Part shown: piece after piece, positions 6,208-29,399 of the stretch
How the letters are laid out: the number at the start of each line of letters is the position of its first letter
How positions within the stretch are numbered: position 1 is the first letter of the stretch
Origin: Acidobacteriota bacterium
Lineage (GTDB): Bacteria > Acidobacteriota > Blastocatellia > UBA7656
Reading direction: 5' to 3'
Length of the DNA: 45,667 nt
NCBI GenBank assembly: GCA_016201275.1
Contig: JACQDB010000136.1
Location: 1-45,667 of the forward strand
The notes under the pieces: model-generated
What the model was told of the DNA's origin: nothing
The model's input: only the letters and a program-made list of their open reading frames with translations
Database searches by the model: none
Made by a program: the position numbers and the translations under genes

Positions 6208-9200
6208 ATGGCTGAGAATGAAGTGAGTGAGCAATTAGAGAAAAAGGTTGCGGATGCGCCGCCGCCCGACCCGATTGCCGAGCGTTCATTTAGTTTGCCG
6301 CTAGTGATTTCGGCGCTGTTATTGGTCGTCGTGATGGTCTGGTCTATGTACGATGAAGTGATCGGCCAACGCCCTTGGAAGGCGTATCAAAAAGATTTCG
6401 TGGCAAAATACACCAGCTATCTGGAAAAGGTGCAGGCCAAACAGGGCAAATCCGAAAGGGAATTGAAAGCCTCGGCGGAGTATCAGGAATTAGAGCAGAA
6501 GTACCAAGACGAAGAGGCCAAAGCTAAACCGCGTGTCGCGGAAATCAATGCGCGCATCCAAAAAATTGATGTGCAGCTTGCCGACATCACGCCGCAATTC
6601 CAAGACACCCGCGCCTGGATTGCCGCCAAAACTTTCAATCTGGAAAACACCCCCGAAGCTTCCCGCCCCAGCCTACGCAATGCCATCGCCAACAAGAAAC
6701 AAGAACAGAATAACGTAAAGATTCATCGTGACGCGGGGCAGACCGAAACCAAATCCATGAACTTCACGGAATTGGAACGGATGTACAATTCGCTACGCGA
6801 TGAGAAAGCGCTGCTGTCTTCCGAGGTCGTCGAAATCACCAAGCCGCAAACCGAAGCGAAGAAAAAACTCGATGCTTATACGCAAGATAATTTGACCGGC
6901 TTGACGACCCAGCAAATCGGCCAGTTGATTGATAAGACAAGCAAGTTTGAATTCAAGATCAAACAAATTCACGTCGCCGAAGGCAATCTGGTGGACCGCT
7001 GCGAGTCTTGTCATTTGGGCATACGCGAACCGCTCACCATCACCAAAGCCAATATGAAAGGCGAAGCCGCTTTCGTCTCGCATCCAGACAAAGAGTTGAT
7101 GACCATACACGACCCCGAACGCTTCGGCTGTTCGACTTGTCACGGCGGCAACGGACGCGCCACGGTGTCGGTGGAAAAAGGTCACGGGCGTTACGAGCAT
7201 TGGCTGTGGCCGATGTATTACAAAGAGAATGTGCAGGCCGGTTGCAATCAATGCCATAACCGCGACCGCGTGACGCAAGGCGCGACGGTGTTGAACGAAG
7301 GCAAGAACCTCTTCAACATACGCGGCTGCACGGGCTGCCATCGCTACGAAGGCTATGACCGCGAAACCGATACGCTTTCGAGTTCGCGGCAACAGGTCAA
7401 GCAACTGGAAATGGAGAAGAAAGAGTATCAACTGGCGGTTGAAGATTTGAAACAGGATCGCGGCGAAGACCGCGCCCGGCGCTTGGTTCCCAATGGCGCA
7501 AATCTGGAGATTAATCAACTGCTGGCCTACGTCAGCCAGACCGTCAGCACCATTGATGCGCGCATAGATGAACTCGACCGGCAAGCGAAATACTTGATGC
7601 AGGATCAGAAAAAGGTTGGCCCCAATCTCAAAGAGATCAAGGCCAAACTTCGCAAGGAATGGATACCGGGCTGGTTGAAAGACCCGCAAGCTTTCCGCCC
7701 CGGCACCAAGATGCCTTCCTTCCGTTTGGAAGATGACGAGATCGAAGCCATCTCGGCCTTCATCTGGCAGGATGCCTTGGATGTGCGTGTGCAAACGCAG
7801 GCGCAAGGCGACGCCGAACACGGCAAACAGTTGTTCAAGACGCTGGGATGTCTGGCTTGCCATTCGATCAAGGGCGAAGCCATAGGCATGGGCGAAGGCG
7901 TCATCGGCGGCCACTTCGCGGCCAATCTTTCGCGGCTCGGCGAGAAGGCCAATTACGATTACATCGTGCGCTGGGTTTACAACCCGCGTCGGCGTCTGGT
8001 GCCGTATTCGCCGTCGTTGAAACGCGACATCACCGCCGAGGATTACAAGAAGAAAGGCTTGCCTTTTAACTTCGACGAAGAGCATTCCAAGAGTCCTGTT
8101 GATGGGCGCGAAATGCAGATACACAACATGACCGTGATGCCTAACTTCCGTTTGTCGGACAGCGATGCCCGCGATGTGGCGACGTTTTTAATCGCGCAAA
8201 AGAAACAGGAGCCTAAGTATCCGAGCGCCACTTTTATGGATGACAAAGGGTTGGCCGAAAAGGGCGCGAAATTGGTGAAGACTTACGGGTGCGCCGGTTG
8301 TCATGAAATTCGCGGCCTCGAAGACGAACAGCGCATCGGCACGGAATTGACCCCCGAAGGCAGCAAGCCTATCGAGCGTCTGGATTTCGCTTTGCTGACC
8401 GAGCCAGCCAAAAAAGGCGAAGACCCAGTGACCGGCGAAGAGATGGACAGCGCCAATGGGCGTGAAAACTGGTACGACCACAAAGGCTTCTTTGAAAATA
8501 AACTGAAGAACCCCGGCATCTACGACAAGGGCAAAGAGAAGCCGCCCGAAGAGCGCTTGAAGATGCCCAACATCTACCTTGAAGCGCAAGACATCACGGC
8601 CTTGACGACGTTCTTGTTGGGCAGCGTCGAAAGCAGTTTGCCTGCTTCGATGCGCTACAATCCGACCGGGCAGAAGAAGAACGTGCAGGACGGTTGGTGG
8701 GTGATTCAAAAATATAATTGCATGGGTTGTCACAATGTACTGGTAGGTCAGGACTCGACTTTGATGAGCGTGGCGATGTATCAAGACGCCGATGGCAAAG
8801 AACAATTGCCGCCGCGTTTGACCAGTGAAGGCGCACGCGTTGACCCGACCTGGCTGATGCGCTTTTTGAAAGACCCGTCTTTGAGTTCAACCAATTCGCC
8901 TGCCGATAACAAAGATCCGAGCGTGATTAAAGCAGCGCTGCCGGGGGTGATAGCGCATCTGACCGGCCAAGCAAGCACGGCTGCGATGGCGGCAAAACCG
9001 GCGGCGGGTACAAAATCGGCAACTCCTGCGCCCTCTATGATGGCGGCAAAACCGCCAACCCCTACGTCACCGATGATGGCAACAGCGGCGGCGCTTGATC
9101 CATCTTCGCTGTTAGGCACGCAGATGGGGGCCAATCGCAATGGCGTGCGGTCGTATTTGAAGACTCGTATGCCAACCTTTAATTTCTCGCCCAATGAATT

Positions 9201-23263: not shown

Positions 23264-24934
23264 ATGGCTTTGGAAATGAATTTAATTCAGGATATCGTGA
23301 CAGAGCCGCTTGCCCCCAATCATGCCAACTCACCGGAATCCCCTCTAGCGGGATGGCTGTGCATTCAACAATCGCTCGCCGAAAAGACTGACTTGGCACT
23401 GCTCACCCTGGCCGCCGATAAAGAGATCATCGGACAAATCGAAAACGACAACAGCATCTGCAAACGCTTTTGGAACTCGGCGGAATACGGCGGCCACTGT
23501 GATGAAGATTGCGGCAAGGCGTACCGTAGAGCCGTGATCGCCAACGAAGCCATCGAGTACCGCTGTCACGCCGGTTTGCAATGTTTCGCCAATCCCATAT
23601 TCCACAACGGCAAACCTTTGGTCGTGCTGGGCGGCAGAGCCTTTACCTCGACCGGCGATTACGCGGGATTTCTGCGCCGCTATCAAGATTGCGAAGCCGT
23701 ACAGGAAGGCGATTGTTTGCACAGCGTCAAATTTATGGACGTCCGCGAAGTGCGCGAAGCCGCCGAGCTAATCAAGTCAACGGCGCATTTTCATTTTCAA
23801 AGTTCCAGCAACACGCTGATGCCTTTCAATGCGGATGCGCCCACCGCCCCCGATTTACTGGACGCCCAACTGGAGATCATAAGGCTTTCCGATGAACTGG
23901 AAAATAAGACTCGCTCGCTGCATCAATACCGGGACTTTTTGCAGATCGTCGCGCAGAGTCTGGATTCGGAAACCGTCTATGCAGAGGTGCTGGAAAAATT
24001 CAGCGAAATCATGAAAGCCGAAACCAGTTCGTTGCTGGTGTTGAACGAAGAATCGGAGGAGCTCGCCCTGGAAGCGGCTGTGGGAGCCGATTTCGAGGCG
24101 CACGCCAAAATTCGTATGAAAGTGGGAGACGGCATTTCGGGATCGGTGATGGCCAGCGGCGCGCCCTTGCTGGTTCGCAATACCGACACCGACCGGCGGG
24201 TTCGCAATCTCAAACACGGGCATTATAAAACCAAATCGTTTATCAGCTATCCGATTACTCTGGGGCAGAAAAAACTCGGCGTCATCAACCTCACCGACCG
24301 CCAGGGCGGCGCTTCTTACGAGAGCAAAGACCTGACCCTGGTCGAGATGATGGCACCGCAACTGGCGCTCATCATTGACCGCACCGAGTGGTTCAAGAAG
24401 GCCGAGCAGTATCAGCAGATGTCTTTAACTGATGCGCTCACCGGCTTGCCCAATCGCCGTTATCTGGAAGAACGCCTGTTTGAAGAGGTCGAACGCTCGA
24501 AACGCCACGCTACGCCGCTCTGCTTTATGTTGATAGACGTTGACCACTTCAAAAAATATAACGACATCTATGGTCACACCAACGCCGATCTGGTGTTGAT
24601 TAAGACGGCGGCGATTTTGCGTCGCTCGGTGCGCGCCATTGATATGCCAGCGCGTTACGCGGGCGATGAGTTCTGCATCATCTTGCCGGAAACCGAAATC
24701 AAGTCCGCCGCCTTCATCGCCGAGCGTTTGTGCAGAGAGGTGCGGCAGACCGAATTTCATTCCGATCAAAGCGAGTTGATGGGACGAGTCACGCTCAGTA
24801 TAGGAGTTTCGTCGTTTGGCCTTGCCCGACAAACCCCGTTGGCGATTATTGAAACCTCTGACCGTGCGCTGTATCAGGCGAAGACCTTGGGGCGCAATCG
24901 TGTGGCGATCTTTGATGACGGGACGCGCGATTAG
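23264..24934 (+). CDS. PocR-GAF-GGDEF diguanylate cyclase
   Basis: This cytosolic sensor protein makes, or formerly made, the second messenger c-di-GMP. In its 556 residues a PocR-type ligand-binding domain (about 30-180) carries a cysteine set C66, C79, C83, C101 and C107, which may bind a metal or cluster or sense redox. A coiled coil (about 200-225) leads to a GAF domain (225-375) and a GGDEF domain (385-550). The active-site motif is AGDEF (466-470) instead of GGDEF; the inhibitory RxxD site is present as RAID (457-460). AGDEF variants are found in some active cyclases, so activity is likely. GGGAGGGAG precedes ATG 23264. Confidence 0.92.
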   Translation: MALEMNLIQDIVTEPLAPNHANSPESPLAGWLCIQQSLAEKTDLALLTLAADKEIIGQIENDNSICKRFWNSAEYGGHCDEDCGKAYRRAVIANEAIEYRCHAGLQCFANPIFHNGKPLVVLGGRAFTSTGDYAGFLRRYQDCEAVQEGDCLHSVKFMDVREVREAAELIKSTAHFHFQSSSNTLMPFNADAPTAPDLLDAQLEIIRLSDELENKTRSLHQYRDFLQIVAQSLDSETVYAEVLEKFSEIMKAETSSLLVLNEESEELALEAAVGADFEAHAKIRMKVGDGISGSVMASGAPLLVRNTDTDRRVRNLKHGHYKTKSFISYPITLGQKKLGVINLTDRQGGASYESKDLTLVEMMAPQLALIIDRTEWFKKAEQYQQMSLTDALTGLPNRRYLEERLFEEVERSKRHATPLCFMLIDVDHFKKYNDIYGHTNADLVLIKTAAILRRSVRAIDMPARYAGDEFCIILPETEIKSAAFIAERLCREVRQTEFHSDQSELMGRVTLSIGVSSFGLARQTPLAIIETSDRALYQAKTLGRNRVAIFDDGTRD

Positions 24935-24972
24935 TTGCACCGCGCAAGCGTCAGCGAAAACTGAATAGCACT

Positions 24973-27333
24973 ATGCAGATTTTGAGTCACCTCACAGACG
25001 ACGAATTCTTTGACCGCGAAAAGGTCGCGGCGCAACTTTACTCGCTGGCCTCGCGCTGCAAAAGCGCGCAGGTGCATAGCCTAGTTTCGCCACACCCCGA
25101 AGCCGACAGCGGCAGGCGCGAACGCCAGAACGGGCGCGCCTTGAACGCCTTGTTGTTGGGCGCGCCACGCACCGGCAAGACCGAACTGTTACGCAAAACC
25201 TTCGACCGCTTGTTTGCCGACAGCGATGATTTAGCGCCCATCTATTTTACTTTTCGCAGCTATGGAGTGAATGTCGAACGCTTTGCGCGAGACTATTTTT
25301 CGCAATTTTTCGCGCAGTTTCTCGCCTTTCGTCTGAATGATCGAACCCTGTTGGCCTTGGCCGGTGAAGCGCTTTCGTCGCTGACCCAGAACACTTCCTC
25401 GGAAGATTATTTCTGGGTGCGGAATTTGGTGGACTCCTTCATCAAAGCCGAGCAAGAGAATGACCCCCTCACCATGTTGCGGCTGGCTTTGAATGCGCCG
25501 ATCATCGCGGCTTCACAAACCCGTGTCGTGCCGTTCATCATGCTCGACAATTTTCATCTGCTGGCCGCTGGCGCGGGTCAACCCGGCGATGACGCGGCGC
25601 GTCAATTGTTGTTCACGGAATTCATCCGCGCCTTCACCTTGCAGGACAGCATAGCGATTAAAACCGGAGCCGATTGCGTGATCTCGCCGGGCTATGTGCT
25701 ATGCGGATTGCGCCGGGTGTTGGTCGAGATGATGCCCGCCGACGAAGGCGTTTTCGAGCGCCTGGAATTGATTCGTCTGGAGCCGCTGGCCGAGGAACCT
25801 TTGGAACAGATGATTCGCGCTACGGCCAATAATTTGGGCGTGGAGATCAGCGACTCGACTGCAGAGTTGATGATTCAACAACTCAACCGCGATATTTTTT
25901 ATACGCGCTCGATGCTGGATGCGGCGGCGGCTGCAGGAGTGCGGCTCAAATCGTTCATGGAATTTGAGCGTCTTTACACCGAAGAGATTTTGCGTGGGCG
26001 AGTCAGTCATTATCTGGATGCCGTGATGCGCGAAGTGGCGGCGGATTCGCGTTTGCGACGCGCTGCCATAGAAGCCTTGGTCTTGGTGATGGATTCGCAT
26101 AGCGCCGTGCCGATAGATGCGGTGATGGAACGCATCAGCGCCTTTACTGCCGACGCCGAAAAATTGTTGCTGCGAATGCACGCCAGAGAACTGGTCGAAA
26201 TCAATTTTGGTTTTGTGCAGGCGGCTGCCGATACCGTGCTTGCCGATTATGTTCAGGCTCGGTATCGCAACGAAATTGCCGGAGCGCGGCGTCCGTTGGC
26301 GGGCGAAGAATTGCTCGGTGAAAAACTGAAGCATTCCTACAAGCTGATGATGAGCCGCTACAATCGCTCGGTTGAAATGCAGTTGATCGAGTTATTGTCG
26401 CGCTACGATTTTCAGGCGGTTCCAACGGTATTGCTTGATGATGCCGAGTACGAAAAATTGTATCGTCGCATGAGTCGTGTGCAGGCGCGGCAATCCTTGG
26501 AAGAGGACACGGCGCGTGTGCGTTTGCCGCAGATGGTGCTGGTGGATGATCTAGGCAGAGGCGATTTGGCGAATGCCAGTTGGCGGATGTTTGCCGCCAA
26601 AGGATTTGAAGGTGGCATCTACAGCGAGGCGAATGAAACTCTGTGGCTGATCGCGCTGATCAATTCCAGAGAGCCTCTGGATGAAGACGCCGTGCAGCAC
26701 ATTGATGCGCGTCTGGAAGCGGCGTCGCGCAATCTGCGAATCGGCAATCAAACCAAAACGGTGCGCTGGTACATCAGCAAAGAAGGCTTTGCGCCGTTAG
26801 CCAAAAAACCGTTGCAGGAGTTGAAGGCGCATCGTTCGACTTATACGCAGCTTGATCTGTTGCATGATTTTCTGCTCAAGAGCGCCGCCAAAGCCGGACA
26901 ATCGCGCAGCGTCAACGAAGTCGAATTAATCATACCGATTGAAGATGAAGCCGAATTGATTGCCGTCCGCACGGTTGAGCAAATCGCTCGTGCCGCAGAT
27001 TTTGATAAAGAGTCCATCAATCAAATCAAGACCGCGTTGATTGAAGCCTGCATCAATGCCGCCGAGCATAGCGACAGCCCCGACCGCAAAATCTATCATC
27101 GCTTCGCCATTGAAAATGATCGGCTGGTGATTTCGGTTTCCAACAAAGGCAAAACCTTCGGCTGGATGAATAGCGCAAATGGCAATGTTGAAAGCAGCGA
27201 AACGGCAAAAGGAACACGCGGTCGCGGCTTGAAGATTATTCGCGGGCTGATGGACGAGGTGCATTTCGAGCGCACCGATGACGGCGCTACGCTGGTCATG
27301 ACAAAGTTGCTAAAATCATCCGATTCGCAGTAA
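24973..27333 (+). CDS. AAA-like ATPase fused to RsbW-type anti-sigma kinase domain
   Basis: This 786-residue protein combines two ATP-binding modules. The N-terminal part is an AAA/STAND-like ATPase: Walker A GAPRTGKT at 63-70 and a Walker-B-like FIMLDNF at about 188-194, then a helical middle region. The C-terminal domain (about 640-786) is a GHKL kinase-like fold of the RsbW/SpoIIAB type: N box EACINAAEH (about 691-699) and G box GRGLKIIRGLMDE (about 750-762). RsbW proteins bind sigma factors and phosphorylate STAS antagonists, and a STAS gene follows 260 bp downstream. The substrate and the sigma factor are not in the window. The start has no clear SD. The gene starts 38 bases after the GGDEF gene. 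Confidence 0.85.
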   Translation: MQILSHLTDDEFFDREKVAAQLYSLASRCKSAQVHSLVSPHPEADSGRRERQNGRALNALLLGAPRTGKTELLRKTFDRLFADSDDLAPIYFTFRSYGVNVERFARDYFSQFFAQFLAFRLNDRTLLALAGEALSSLTQNTSSEDYFWVRNLVDSFIKAEQENDPLTMLRLALNAPIIAASQTRVVPFIMLDNFHLLAAGAGQPGDDAARQLLFTEFIRAFTLQDSIAIKTGADCVISPGYVLCGLRRVLVEMMPADEGVFERLELIRLEPLAEEPLEQMIRATANNLGVEISDSTAELMIQQLNRDIFYTRSMLDAAAAAGVRLKSFMEFERLYTEEILRGRVSHYLDAVMREVAADSRLRRAAIEALVLVMDSHSAVPIDAVMERISAFTADAEKLLLRMHARELVEINFGFVQAAADTVLADYVQARYRNEIAGARRPLAGEELLGEKLKHSYKLMMSRYNRSVEMQLIELLSRYDFQAVPTVLLDDAEYEKLYRRMSRVQARQSLEEDTARVRLPQMVLVDDLGRGDLANASWRMFAAKGFEGGIYSEANETLWLIALINSREPLDEDAVQHIDARLEAASRNLRIGNQTKTVRWYISKEGFAPLAKKPLQELKAHRSTYTQLDLLHDFLLKSAAKAGQSRSVNEVELIIPIEDEAELIAVRTVEQIARAADFDKESINQIKTALIEACINAAEHSDSPDRKIYHRFAIENDRLVISVSNKGKTFGWMNSANGNVESSETAKGTRGRGLKIIRGLMDEVHFERTDDGATLVMTKLLKSSDSQ

Positions 27334-27593
27334 GATAGCGGCGTTTGGCAGGCCACCCTTCCTGCCCAAACCGCTGTAGTTGCAAAAAGCCCTGACGTAC
27401 CAATCCTCTGATTTCCTGAGCCAGGACGATGCAGGAATCAGTCATTTTATTCGCTATAAAAAAATCTATAACGATGGTTGAATAGCTCTGCCTTGCGCTG
27501 TCTCGGTTTGCCGACAACGGCTTTGGCGAGGACTTCAACCTGCGTCATAGAGGTTGTCACTATGCAGGTTCAGGCAGCGACGAAGGAGGCTTT

Positions 27594-27947
27594 ATGAACG
27601 GTATGGAGGTGAAAGCGAAACTTGTTGAGGGGACAGCGATTCTGTATCCGGGCGCTTATCTCAATCAACTCAGAGGCGAAGTCATCGAGCATCGTTGTCA
27701 GGCATTGCTCGATCAGGGCGTGCGGCGGCTGGTGATTAATTTTGCCGAGACCGAATTAATCAACAGCATAGGCATTTCGATTCTGCTCGGCGTCATCGAA
27801 ACCGTGAACGCGGCAAACGGCACGCTGTTGATTTCCAATCTCAATGAATCGAACCGCGAGTTATTCGAGATGCTTGGCTTGTTGTCGCACCTCTGCATAG
27901 AGGAGACCGAAGAGAGGGCGCTCGCCAAGTTCCATTCATGCGCTTGA
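27594..27947 (+). CDS. STAS-domain anti-sigma factor antagonist
   Basis: This 117-residue cytosolic protein has the SpoIIAA/RsbV fold. The conserved phosphorylation region reads LINSIGISILLG, with candidate serines S58 and S62 at the start of the helix. In partner switching the dephosphorylated form binds the RsbW-type kinase and releases the sigma factor. It probably partners the preceding ATPase-kinase. AAGGAGG (27583-27589) gives strong support to ATG 27594. The 260-bp gap upstream holds a hairpin-like GTTTGGCAGG/CCTGCCCAAAC (about 27343-27374), and the MITE-like element follows the gene. Confidence 0.9.
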   Translation: MNGMEVKAKLVEGTAILYPGAYLNQLRGEVIEHRCQALLDQGVRRLVINFAETELINSIGISILLGVIETVNAANGTLLISNLNESNRELFEMLGLLSHLCIEETEERALAKFHSCA

Positions 27948-27976
27948 AGCGAAGAAGCAGCAATGAGAACCGCATG

Positions 27977-28085
27977 GATAGCGGGTTGCAGAGGTGCGCG
28001 CTTGGTTGAGCGATGCTCACAGGCCGCCGTGCGGCGGTCGCAGACCGCCTCTCAACAAATCGCACACATCTGCAACCCGCTATAG
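27977..28085. repeat. MITE-like element, copy C (TATAGCG termini)
   Basis: The element is about 109 bp: GATAGCGGGTTGCAGAGG at the left and ATCTGCAACCCGCTATA at the right, inverse of each other over about 25 bases. Inner segments GTTGAG and GACCGCCTCTCAAC also pair. This is the most symmetrical copy. It lies between the STAS and HD-GYP genes. Confidence 0.8.
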
Positions 28086-28148
28086 GAACAGGGAATGATT
28101 TGAACCGATCAGGAGAGCGGCTGAGAGAACGCTTTCAGAGGGGAAGAC

Positions 28149-29399
28149 ATGATAAAACTCGAAATGCGAAAAATGCTGCACACCATAGCAGCCTTGACCG
28201 ATTTGGGCAACGAGATCAACTCCAGCAAAGATTTCGATGAAGTGATACGAACTTCTTTGCATACTTGTTTAGGCACGCTGGCGATTCCGAAAGGCGCTAT
28301 CGCACGCTACAGCGCCAAGCCCAGGCAATTGAAAATCGTCGCCGCCAAAGGCTTGGCGGGCGTGGTCGGGCAGAAGATTGAATTGGGTGTGGATGAAGTG
28401 GCAAAAATCGCTGCGCGCACACGGCCTATTAAATTGACCGCCGAACGCAATGGCCTGGCGCATTTCGTGCGCCGCAACCAAGAGATGTTTAACAAGCTGC
28501 GCGCCCACCTGGCCGTGCCGATGATCGTGCAGGGCGAATTAATCGGCGTGATTTATTTATCCGAGAAGCTCTCCGGCGAAGCCTTCAGCGACGACGATTT
28601 AACGATCATCAACACCATCGCCCGTCATATCGGACTGGCGTTTTACAATCAACGCTTGATCGTTTCGCTCAAGCGCCGCGCCGAAGAAAATCGGCGGCTG
28701 TATAAAGAGATGCGCCAGGTCTATCACGATGTGGTGCGCGCTTTTGGTTCGGCGATTGATTTGAAAGACGCCTACACCAAAGGCCATTCGGATCGCGTGG
28801 CGCGCTACTCTGAAGCGATTGCCAGAGAGATGGGCTTGAGCGGCGAGGAACTGGAAAACATAGGCGTCGCCGGTTATCTGCACGACATCGGCAAGATCAC
28901 CGTTGACCGCGCCATCATCAACAACCCGCGCCCGCTGACCGAACGCGAATTCAAAGAACTCAATAAACACGCGGTCACCGGTTATGAAATCCTCGCCAAC
29001 ATACGCCACCCTTGGCAGGAGATTGCTTATATGACCAAATGTCATCATGAAAAAGTTGACGGCACGGGCTACCCGCAGGGCTTGCGCGGCGACGAGATTC
29101 CGCTAGGGTCGCGCATCGTAACGCTGGCCGATTCTTTCGATGCGATGATGACCGACCGACCGTATCGCGTCCGCCTGCCGCTGGAAAAAGCCTTGAACGA
29201 TGTCGAACGCAACACCAATTCGCAGTTCGATGCCCGCGTGGTTACGGCTTTCTGTCGCCTGTTATTGAAAGAGCTGAATGGCGCGAGCCGCGAACGCATT
29301 ATCATACCGATGATTGGTTTGAAGTTTGACCGCGCCCAAATCGTCAGCCAACTCGAAGCGATCATCAGTCAGTTTGAAGAGATAAGTCTGGCCGTATGA
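28149..29399 (+). CDS. GAF-HD-GYP c-di-GMP phosphodiesterase
   Basis: This 416-residue cytosolic protein has a GAF domain (about 15-185), a linker coiled coil and an HD-GYP domain (about 205-400). Metal and catalytic motifs are intact: HSDR (217-220), LHDIGK with H245-D246, HHE (299-301) and DGTGYP (304-309). HD-GYP enzymes hydrolyse c-di-GMP to pGpG or GMP. Together with the GGDEF gene upstream, the cluster can in principle make and remove the messenger. An AGGGGA motif precedes ATG 28149. Confidence 0.93.
   Translation: MIKLEMRKMLHTIAALTDLGNEINSSKDFDEVIRTSLHTCLGTLAIPKGAIARYSAKPRQLKIVAAKGLAGVVGQKIELGVDEVAKIAARTRPIKLTAERNGLAHFVRRNQEMFNKLRAHLAVPMIVQGELIGVIYLSEKLSGEAFSDDDLTIINTIARHIGLAFYNQRLIVSLKRRAEENRRLYKEMRQVYHDVVRAFGSAIDLKDAYTKGHSDRVARYSEAIAREMGLSGEELENIGVAGYLHDIGKITVDRAIINNPRPLTEREFKELNKHAVTGYEILANIRHPWQEIAYMTKCHHEKVDGTGYPQGLRGDEIPLGSRIVTLADSFDAMMTDRPYRVRLPLEKALNDVERNTNSQFDARVVTAFCRLLLKELNGASRERIIIPMIGLKFDRAQIVSQLEAIISQFEEISLAV

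Follow-up and report, generated by a model that had tools for sequence, protein, structure and literature searches.

Closest described systems and the locus studied

Several bacterial STAS proteins set the activity of a diguanylate cyclase (DGC): HsbA acts in this way on HsbD (PMC6482189), BgrV on BgrR, and SiaC on SiaD (both PMC8457831). The locus compared with them here lies in a 45,667-nucleotide stretch of Acidobacteriota DNA (the window), which is contig C33 of genome G000, a 6.84 Mb genome placed in the class Blastocatellia by the names of the organisms with matching sequences. Four genes, all on the + strand, follow one another. They encode a PocR-GAF-GGDEF DGC (P1, 556 aa, 23264–24934), a fusion of a STAND/ATPase_2-like NTPase, a winged helix, a restriction-endonuclease-like (REase-like) region and an RsbW-like GHKL domain (P2, 786 aa, 24973–27333), a single-domain STAS protein (P3, 117 aa, 27594–27947), and a GAF-HD-GYP phosphodiesterase (PDE) of cyclic di-GMP (c-di-GMP) (P4, 416 aa, 28149–29399). 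An earlier interpretation made from the letters of the window (the sequence-only reading) had described four such genes in a row, and the open reading frames and Pfam assignments agree with it. We consider that the locus is probably one dedicated module, in which a partner-switch pair would tie the synthesis of c-di-GMP to its removal.

In the HsbR–HsbA–HsbD system, which belongs to the HptB pathway of Pseudomonas aeruginosa, there is also a GHKL kinase domain, and the state of the STAS protein decides its binding to the DGC, which resembles what we propose for the module. HsbR, however, includes receiver and PP2C domains, whereas the module has no phosphatase and its GHKL domain lacks the Asp of the G1 box; the passages on HsbRAD that were read name no PDE and no STAND or REase-like part (PMC6482189 for all these features of HsbRAD). 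The closest published circuit logic is that of SiaABCD from P. aeruginosa, an operon with the kinase SiaB, the STAS-like SiaC, and the DGC SiaD (PMC8457831). SiaC is a DUF1987 rather than a PF01740 protein, the phosphatase SiaA is present, and there is no HD-GYP gene. The module is thus not of the SiaABCD type, since its STAS protein belongs to PF01740 and the set contains no phosphatase gene; P1 scores 161 against the NCBIfam model of SiaD, for which the cut-off is 290. In BgrSTUWV–BgrR of Sinorhizobium meliloti, the STAS protein BgrV governs a DGC by partner switching (cited in PMC8457831), a system that we liken to the module by its description only. The RsbW/SpoIIAB and RsbV/SpoIIAA pairs of Bacillus share domain families and folds with the module (6m36, 1til, 1auz), but differ from it in the presence of the G1 Asp and of the DSSG motif, in having a sigma factor as the target, and in the lack of a fusion.

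Since HsbRAD, SiaABCD, and BgrSTUWV–BgrR show STAS control of cyclases, the kind of system is already known. New features of the module are the paired PDE, the fusion of STAND, REase-like, and GHKL parts, the absence of both a phosphatase and the G1 Asp, and the range of lineages in which it occurs. The papers listed in a literature search included nothing relevant to c-di-GMP in Blastocatellia, to PocR-GGDEF proteins, or to STAND–RsbW fusions, and we found no described STAS–cyclase module with a matching PDE, a STAND–GHKL fusion, and an absent phosphatase and G1 Asp.

Gene order and co-occurrence

Full-length relatives of the fusion are present in 7/7 genomes of the window's family (49–59% identity) and in most genomes of family f3 (about 30–36% identity), which is Pyrinomonadaceae according to the organism names of the matching relatives. 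When 297 Acidobacteriota genomes were searched with a stringent profile of the middle domain, only families f1 and f3 were returned, and a degenerate copy in genome G049 (family f6) was not among the matches. A scan of named genomes added the cultured Pyrinomonas methylaliphatogenes K22 (L093), as well as metagenome-assembled genomes labelled 'Deltaproteobacteria' (L146, L148, L149, L153), in which the fusion is 24–29% identical and the gene order is kept. Blastocatellia (both the window's family and Pyrinomonadaceae) and several metagenome-assembled genomes labelled 'Deltaproteobacteria' share the four genes as a conserved module, which keeps its order in two phyla and has been retained over a long evolutionary period in soil Acidobacteria and some Deltaproteobacteria. 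One further contig with this label (L098, DP_1) resembles the Pyrinomonadaceae copies and is probably mislabelled or misbinned.

The DGC gene lies directly upstream of the fusion gene in all 72 loci with enough contig; the two genes overlap in 40 loci and are within 20 nt in 60, and the median spacing is -4 nt. The STAS and PDE genes follow downstream, adjacent and in order, in 39/65 loci, and in three more the pair is found 2–3 kb further on. Nine genomes have no such pair nearby, and each of them contains exactly one strong STAS ortholog elsewhere, directly followed in 9/9 by a GAF-HD-GYP gene. Loss of the STAS gene from loci without a downstream copy was consequently rejected, as the gene has been relocated jointly with the PDE gene. 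Because a relocated STAS gene is always found with the PDE gene and the DGC gene always with the fusion gene, the cluster breaks, in the loci read, only between the fusion and STAS genes. The set is therefore present either as one four-gene cluster or as two intact, tightly kept pairs.

The two halves also occur together across genomes. In the largest family, f3, the STAS gene is present in 86/92 genomes with the fusion, versus 1/12 without it (Fisher p 6e-10, uncorrected for phylogeny), and in five of the six genomes with a fusion but no STAS gene the fusion is at or near a contig end. Conserved synteny, co-occurrence, and co-relocation lead us to reject chance adjacency of the genes. The sequence-only reading had proposed a single circuit and had pointed to synteny in relatives as its check; the genes are indeed neighbours in relatives, and the three lines of evidence listed above argue for one circuit.

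Some copies deviate from the common arrangement. The lone f6 locus (L078/L223, in G049) consists of DGC and fusion genes; the GHKL domain of its fusion is degraded (the N-box Asn is replaced by Ser and the G2 glycines are lost), and the genome lacks this STAS gene, an apparent co-degeneration. In one branch of Pyrinomonadaceae (L158, L159, L161, L162, L073) a second GGDEF gene follows the fusion gene, encoding an FHA-GGDEF protein in L158, and in L073 (genome G059) the STAS–PDE pair has been relocated elsewhere in the genome. In L053 (5535–10142) the DGC and fusion form one frame of 1536 aa, with GGDEF in another frame (7405–7866), which is likely an assembly frameshift and not a true fusion.

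GHKL domain and STAS protein

The GHKL domain (aa 648–780 of the fusion, 26914–27312, delimited by alignment and a fold match) was called an RsbW-type kinase in the sequence-only reading. Its profile and fold bear out the likeness to RsbW (HATPase_c_2, PF13581, residues 664–778, E 3e-20; for the AlphaFold2 (AF2) model, 6m36_C with Z 18.9 and rmsd 1.6 over 105 residues). The N box is nearly invariant, with Glu691 in 90/90 and Asn695 in 89/90 relatives, and the G2 box R749-G-x-G752 is kept. The G1 box is a different matter: in the window it reads SNKG rather than DxG, with Asn724 (codon 27142–27144) at the site where RsbW and SpoIIAB have Asp, and among 90 relatives this position is Asn in 59, Ser in 31, and Asp in none. 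The G1 Asp forms a hydrogen bond with adenine and has been described as absolutely conserved; in SspH its replacement by Ala abolished function (PMC9137472). A domain that lacks the adenine-contacting Asp in 90/90 relatives cannot simply be named an RsbW-type ATP kinase. A canonical RsbW-like/STAS pair, with the G1 Asp and DSSG, is encoded elsewhere in the window's genome (L001, G000:C96).

The STAS protein is a clear member of PF01740 (38.9 bits versus a cut-off of 22.6, E 8e-10), although it falls far under the cut-off of the NCBIfam equivalog TIGR02886 (40 versus 114.75 bits). The phosphoacceptor Ser58 (codon 27765–27767), aligned with Ser58 of SpoIIAA, is kept in 60/60 relatives. It lies in the motif N57-S58-I59-G60, compared to D57-S58-S59-G60 in SpoIIAA; the preceding residue is Asn in 60/60 and never Asp, and all 60 have N-S-[IV]-[GA] rather than the D-S-[ST]-G of anti-sigma antagonists. 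The STAS antagonist with phosphorylatable serines that was proposed earlier thus stands as a STAS protein, but with a single equivalent of the phosphoacceptor. In SiaC, which is phosphorylated at T68, an Asn also precedes the phosphoacceptor (N67-T68-S69) (PMC8457831).

Sister operon

A free-standing GHKL protein, a STAS protein with the motif NSIG, and a GAF-GAF-SpoIIE protein are encoded in a row in f4 (L084, L085, L217–L221), a Blastocatellia family that very probably comprises Chloracidobacterium and its relatives; the SpoIIE domain was checked with Pfam in L084 and L085, and in L218 a short contig truncates the last gene. The GHKL, STAS, and GAF domains are orthologous to those of the module and are in the same order. 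The GAF domain of the window PDE (28227–28640, Pfam) matches the first GAF of the f4 protein with E 1e-25 to 1e-28 in 4/4 sister genomes, about as strongly as it matches the Pyrinomonadaceae PDE orthologs, whereas the next GAF gives 1e-10. A tree of GHKL domains recovers the module as a single clade (95/94), which groups with f4 (100/100) and apart from the canonical RsbW proteins. This tree leaves out the two longest branches and one module row; the STAS tree, being too short, does not show whether the module is one clade.

The f4 operon differs from the module in that its GHKL protein is free-standing and has the G1 Asp (in all seven proteins), a SpoIIE phosphatase is found in place of HD-GYP, and the cyclase, STAND, and REase-like parts are absent. 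The simplest reading of these sequences would be that the same STAS-linked GAF protein carries a phosphatase in one lineage and a c-di-GMP PDE in the other, and, again as the simplest reading, that a single loss of the G1 Asp took place in the line leading to the module.

Cyclase, phosphodiesterase, and remaining parts of the fusion

The DGC comprises PocR (residues 34–178, 23363–23797), GAF (233–372), and GGDEF (388–546, E 1e-44) domains assigned by Pfam. Its active-site residues (D425/D427 and AGDEF 466–470) and the I-site (R457xxD460) are conserved across relatives, with GG[DE]EF or AGDEF, RxxD, and DxD present in 83–85 of 85, as in diguanylate cyclases. In the PDE, GAF (27–164) is followed by HD_5/HD-GYP (202–364, E 4e-34); the best PDB matches are HD-GYP enzymes, and the HD and HHExxDGxGYP motifs of such PDEs are invariant in 54/54 relatives with data. 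Both enzymes keep all their catalytic residues and are predicted to be catalytically intact, in agreement with the proposed pairing of c-di-GMP synthesis and removal. The PocR cysteines 66, 79, 83, 101, and 107, previously suggested as the sensor input, are kept in 68–74 of 75 relatives; a second, unrelated PocR in the window's genome shares 4/5 of them. Judged by these comparisons, the cysteines are a general feature of the PocR domain and therefore do not point specifically to the circuit of the module.

The fusion is unusual, as had been noticed, and more complex than an ATPase joined to a kinase. Its AF2 model has a pLDDT of 88, and residues 4–430 of the model match archaeal ATPase_2 structures (2qen, Z 23.6 over 328 residues; 2fna, Z 22.6), as well as NLR/CED-4 proteins (Z 16–20). 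Modelling thus identifies this part as a STAND/ATPase_2-like NTPase with a C-terminal winged helix, and on the basis of the fold search the generic label 'AAA' was dropped. The NTPase and winged-helix fold is common to archaeal ATPase_2 and STAND NB-ARC proteins, but identity to them is only 12–13%, the N terminus has no significant Pfam family (just AAA_22 and AAA_16, both below the cut-off), and the module fusions mostly lack the Walker Lys and end with a GHKL domain. The Walker A motif of the earlier description, GAPRTGKT, is present in the window (aa 63–70, 25159–25182, from the sequence and the alignment of relatives). Its Lys is lost in 72/87 relatives and kept in 15/87, which include the window, its family, and Deltaproteobacteria; hydrolysis of ATP by the N-terminal NTPase therefore cannot be required in general.

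The middle region (aa 435–645, 26275–26907) consists in the AF2 model of a long helix followed by a fold between the NTPase and GHKL parts that the two-domain description had not included. Modelled alone (pLDDT 94.5), it matches 1y88 (Z 9.0), MspJI (7.5), RPB5 (7.3–7.6), and EndoMS (7.2), nearly all of the PD-(D/E)xK fold, with a best Foldseek E of 3e-3. At the D...(D/E)xK site the window has INSR, compared to EIDSK in Pyrinomonadaceae, leaving no clear active site in the window. The resemblance to a PD-(D/E)xK, restriction-endonuclease-like fold is suggestive, but not proven.

The window genes are spaced more loosely (38, 260, and 201 nt) than those of relatives (medians -4, 70, and 25 nt), partly because a dispersed repeat occupies positions 27978–28083, between the STAS and PDE genes. 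This 106-nt near-perfect palindrome, to which no strand is assigned, folds at -63 kcal/mol (z -5.6) and has 75 matches in the genome at several dozen distinct places; it is a REP/MITE-like dispersed element outside the conserved module. Scans for promoters and terminators gave signals at chance level only.

Proposed mechanism and alternative explanations

We propose that the STAS protein would shuttle between the GHKL domain of the upstream half and the GAF-HD-GYP protein of the downstream half, and that a signal received by the PocR-GAF cyclase, the STAND part, or both would set the cyclase and PDE activities inversely. We can speculate further that the switch may no longer use a cycle of ATP-dependent kinase and phosphatase, because the sister operon has the GHKL Asp and a SpoIIE domain on the orthologous GAF protein, whereas the module has Asn or Ser and HD-GYP. 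The GHKL domain may then bind the STAS protein under the control of a nucleotide, perhaps with an altered preference for the base. It is conceivable, and we hold it only tentatively, that partner switching proceeds here without ATP phospho-cycling, the STAS protein being switched by c-di-GMP turnover or by another nucleotide, possibly GTP, on the GHKL or STAND part.

Several observations weigh against these proposals. The STAS–PDE pair is unlinked from the DGC–fusion pair in about a third of the loci, so that strict co-transcription is not required. Genome G073 (L222), which is 94% complete, is the one clear exception to the co-occurrence and the last of the six f3 genomes with a fusion but no STAS gene: its fusion has intact N and G2 boxes, and no STAS ortholog was found in it. 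The phosphorylation-free version is further opposed by the invariant Glu and Asn of the N box, which argue that binding of nucleotide and Mg, and maybe catalysis, would be retained.

A classical phospho-switch, in which the GHKL domain phosphorylates Ser58 of the STAS protein with ATP despite the Asn or Ser, an unlinked SpoIIE protein removes the phosphate, and the state of the STAS protein picks the c-di-GMP enzyme as with HsbA or SiaC, is possible but doubtful. Phosphate transfer would fit the invariant Ser58 and N box, the N-T-S motif of phosphorylated SiaC, and eight SpoIIE-type matches elsewhere in the window's genome. On the other hand, all 7 proteins of the sister operon and the canonical RsbW encoded in the window's genome have the G1 Asp that is missing throughout the module, and no phosphatase gene belonging to the module is present in any locus read.

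The domain families, those of SpoIIAB/RsbW and SpoIIAA/RsbV, would also suit an anti-sigma circuit, in which a sigma factor is held back by the GHKL domain and freed by the STAS protein, and the c-di-GMP enzymes are merely co-regulated. This seems unlikely, since no sigma factor gene is present in the set or was recognised among the neighbouring open reading frames of the window, the gene that relocates with STAS encodes the PDE and not a sigma factor, and the genome has its separate canonical RsbW/STAS pair; the 'anti-sigma' label of the sequence-only reading accordingly finds no support. That the cyclase, NTPase, STAS protein, and PDE are separate regulators held together by co-expression would agree with the unlinked halves, but is very improbable, as breakage occurs at one point only, with both halves intact, and STAS tracks the fusion even when unlinked.

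For the proposed module, the sister operon provides a natural comparison, in which one position of the shared GAF protein is taken by a phosphatase in one case and by a phosphodiesterase in the other. Whether a partner switch can work without ATP phospho-cycling thereby becomes open to direct tests in the cultured P. methylaliphatogenes K22.

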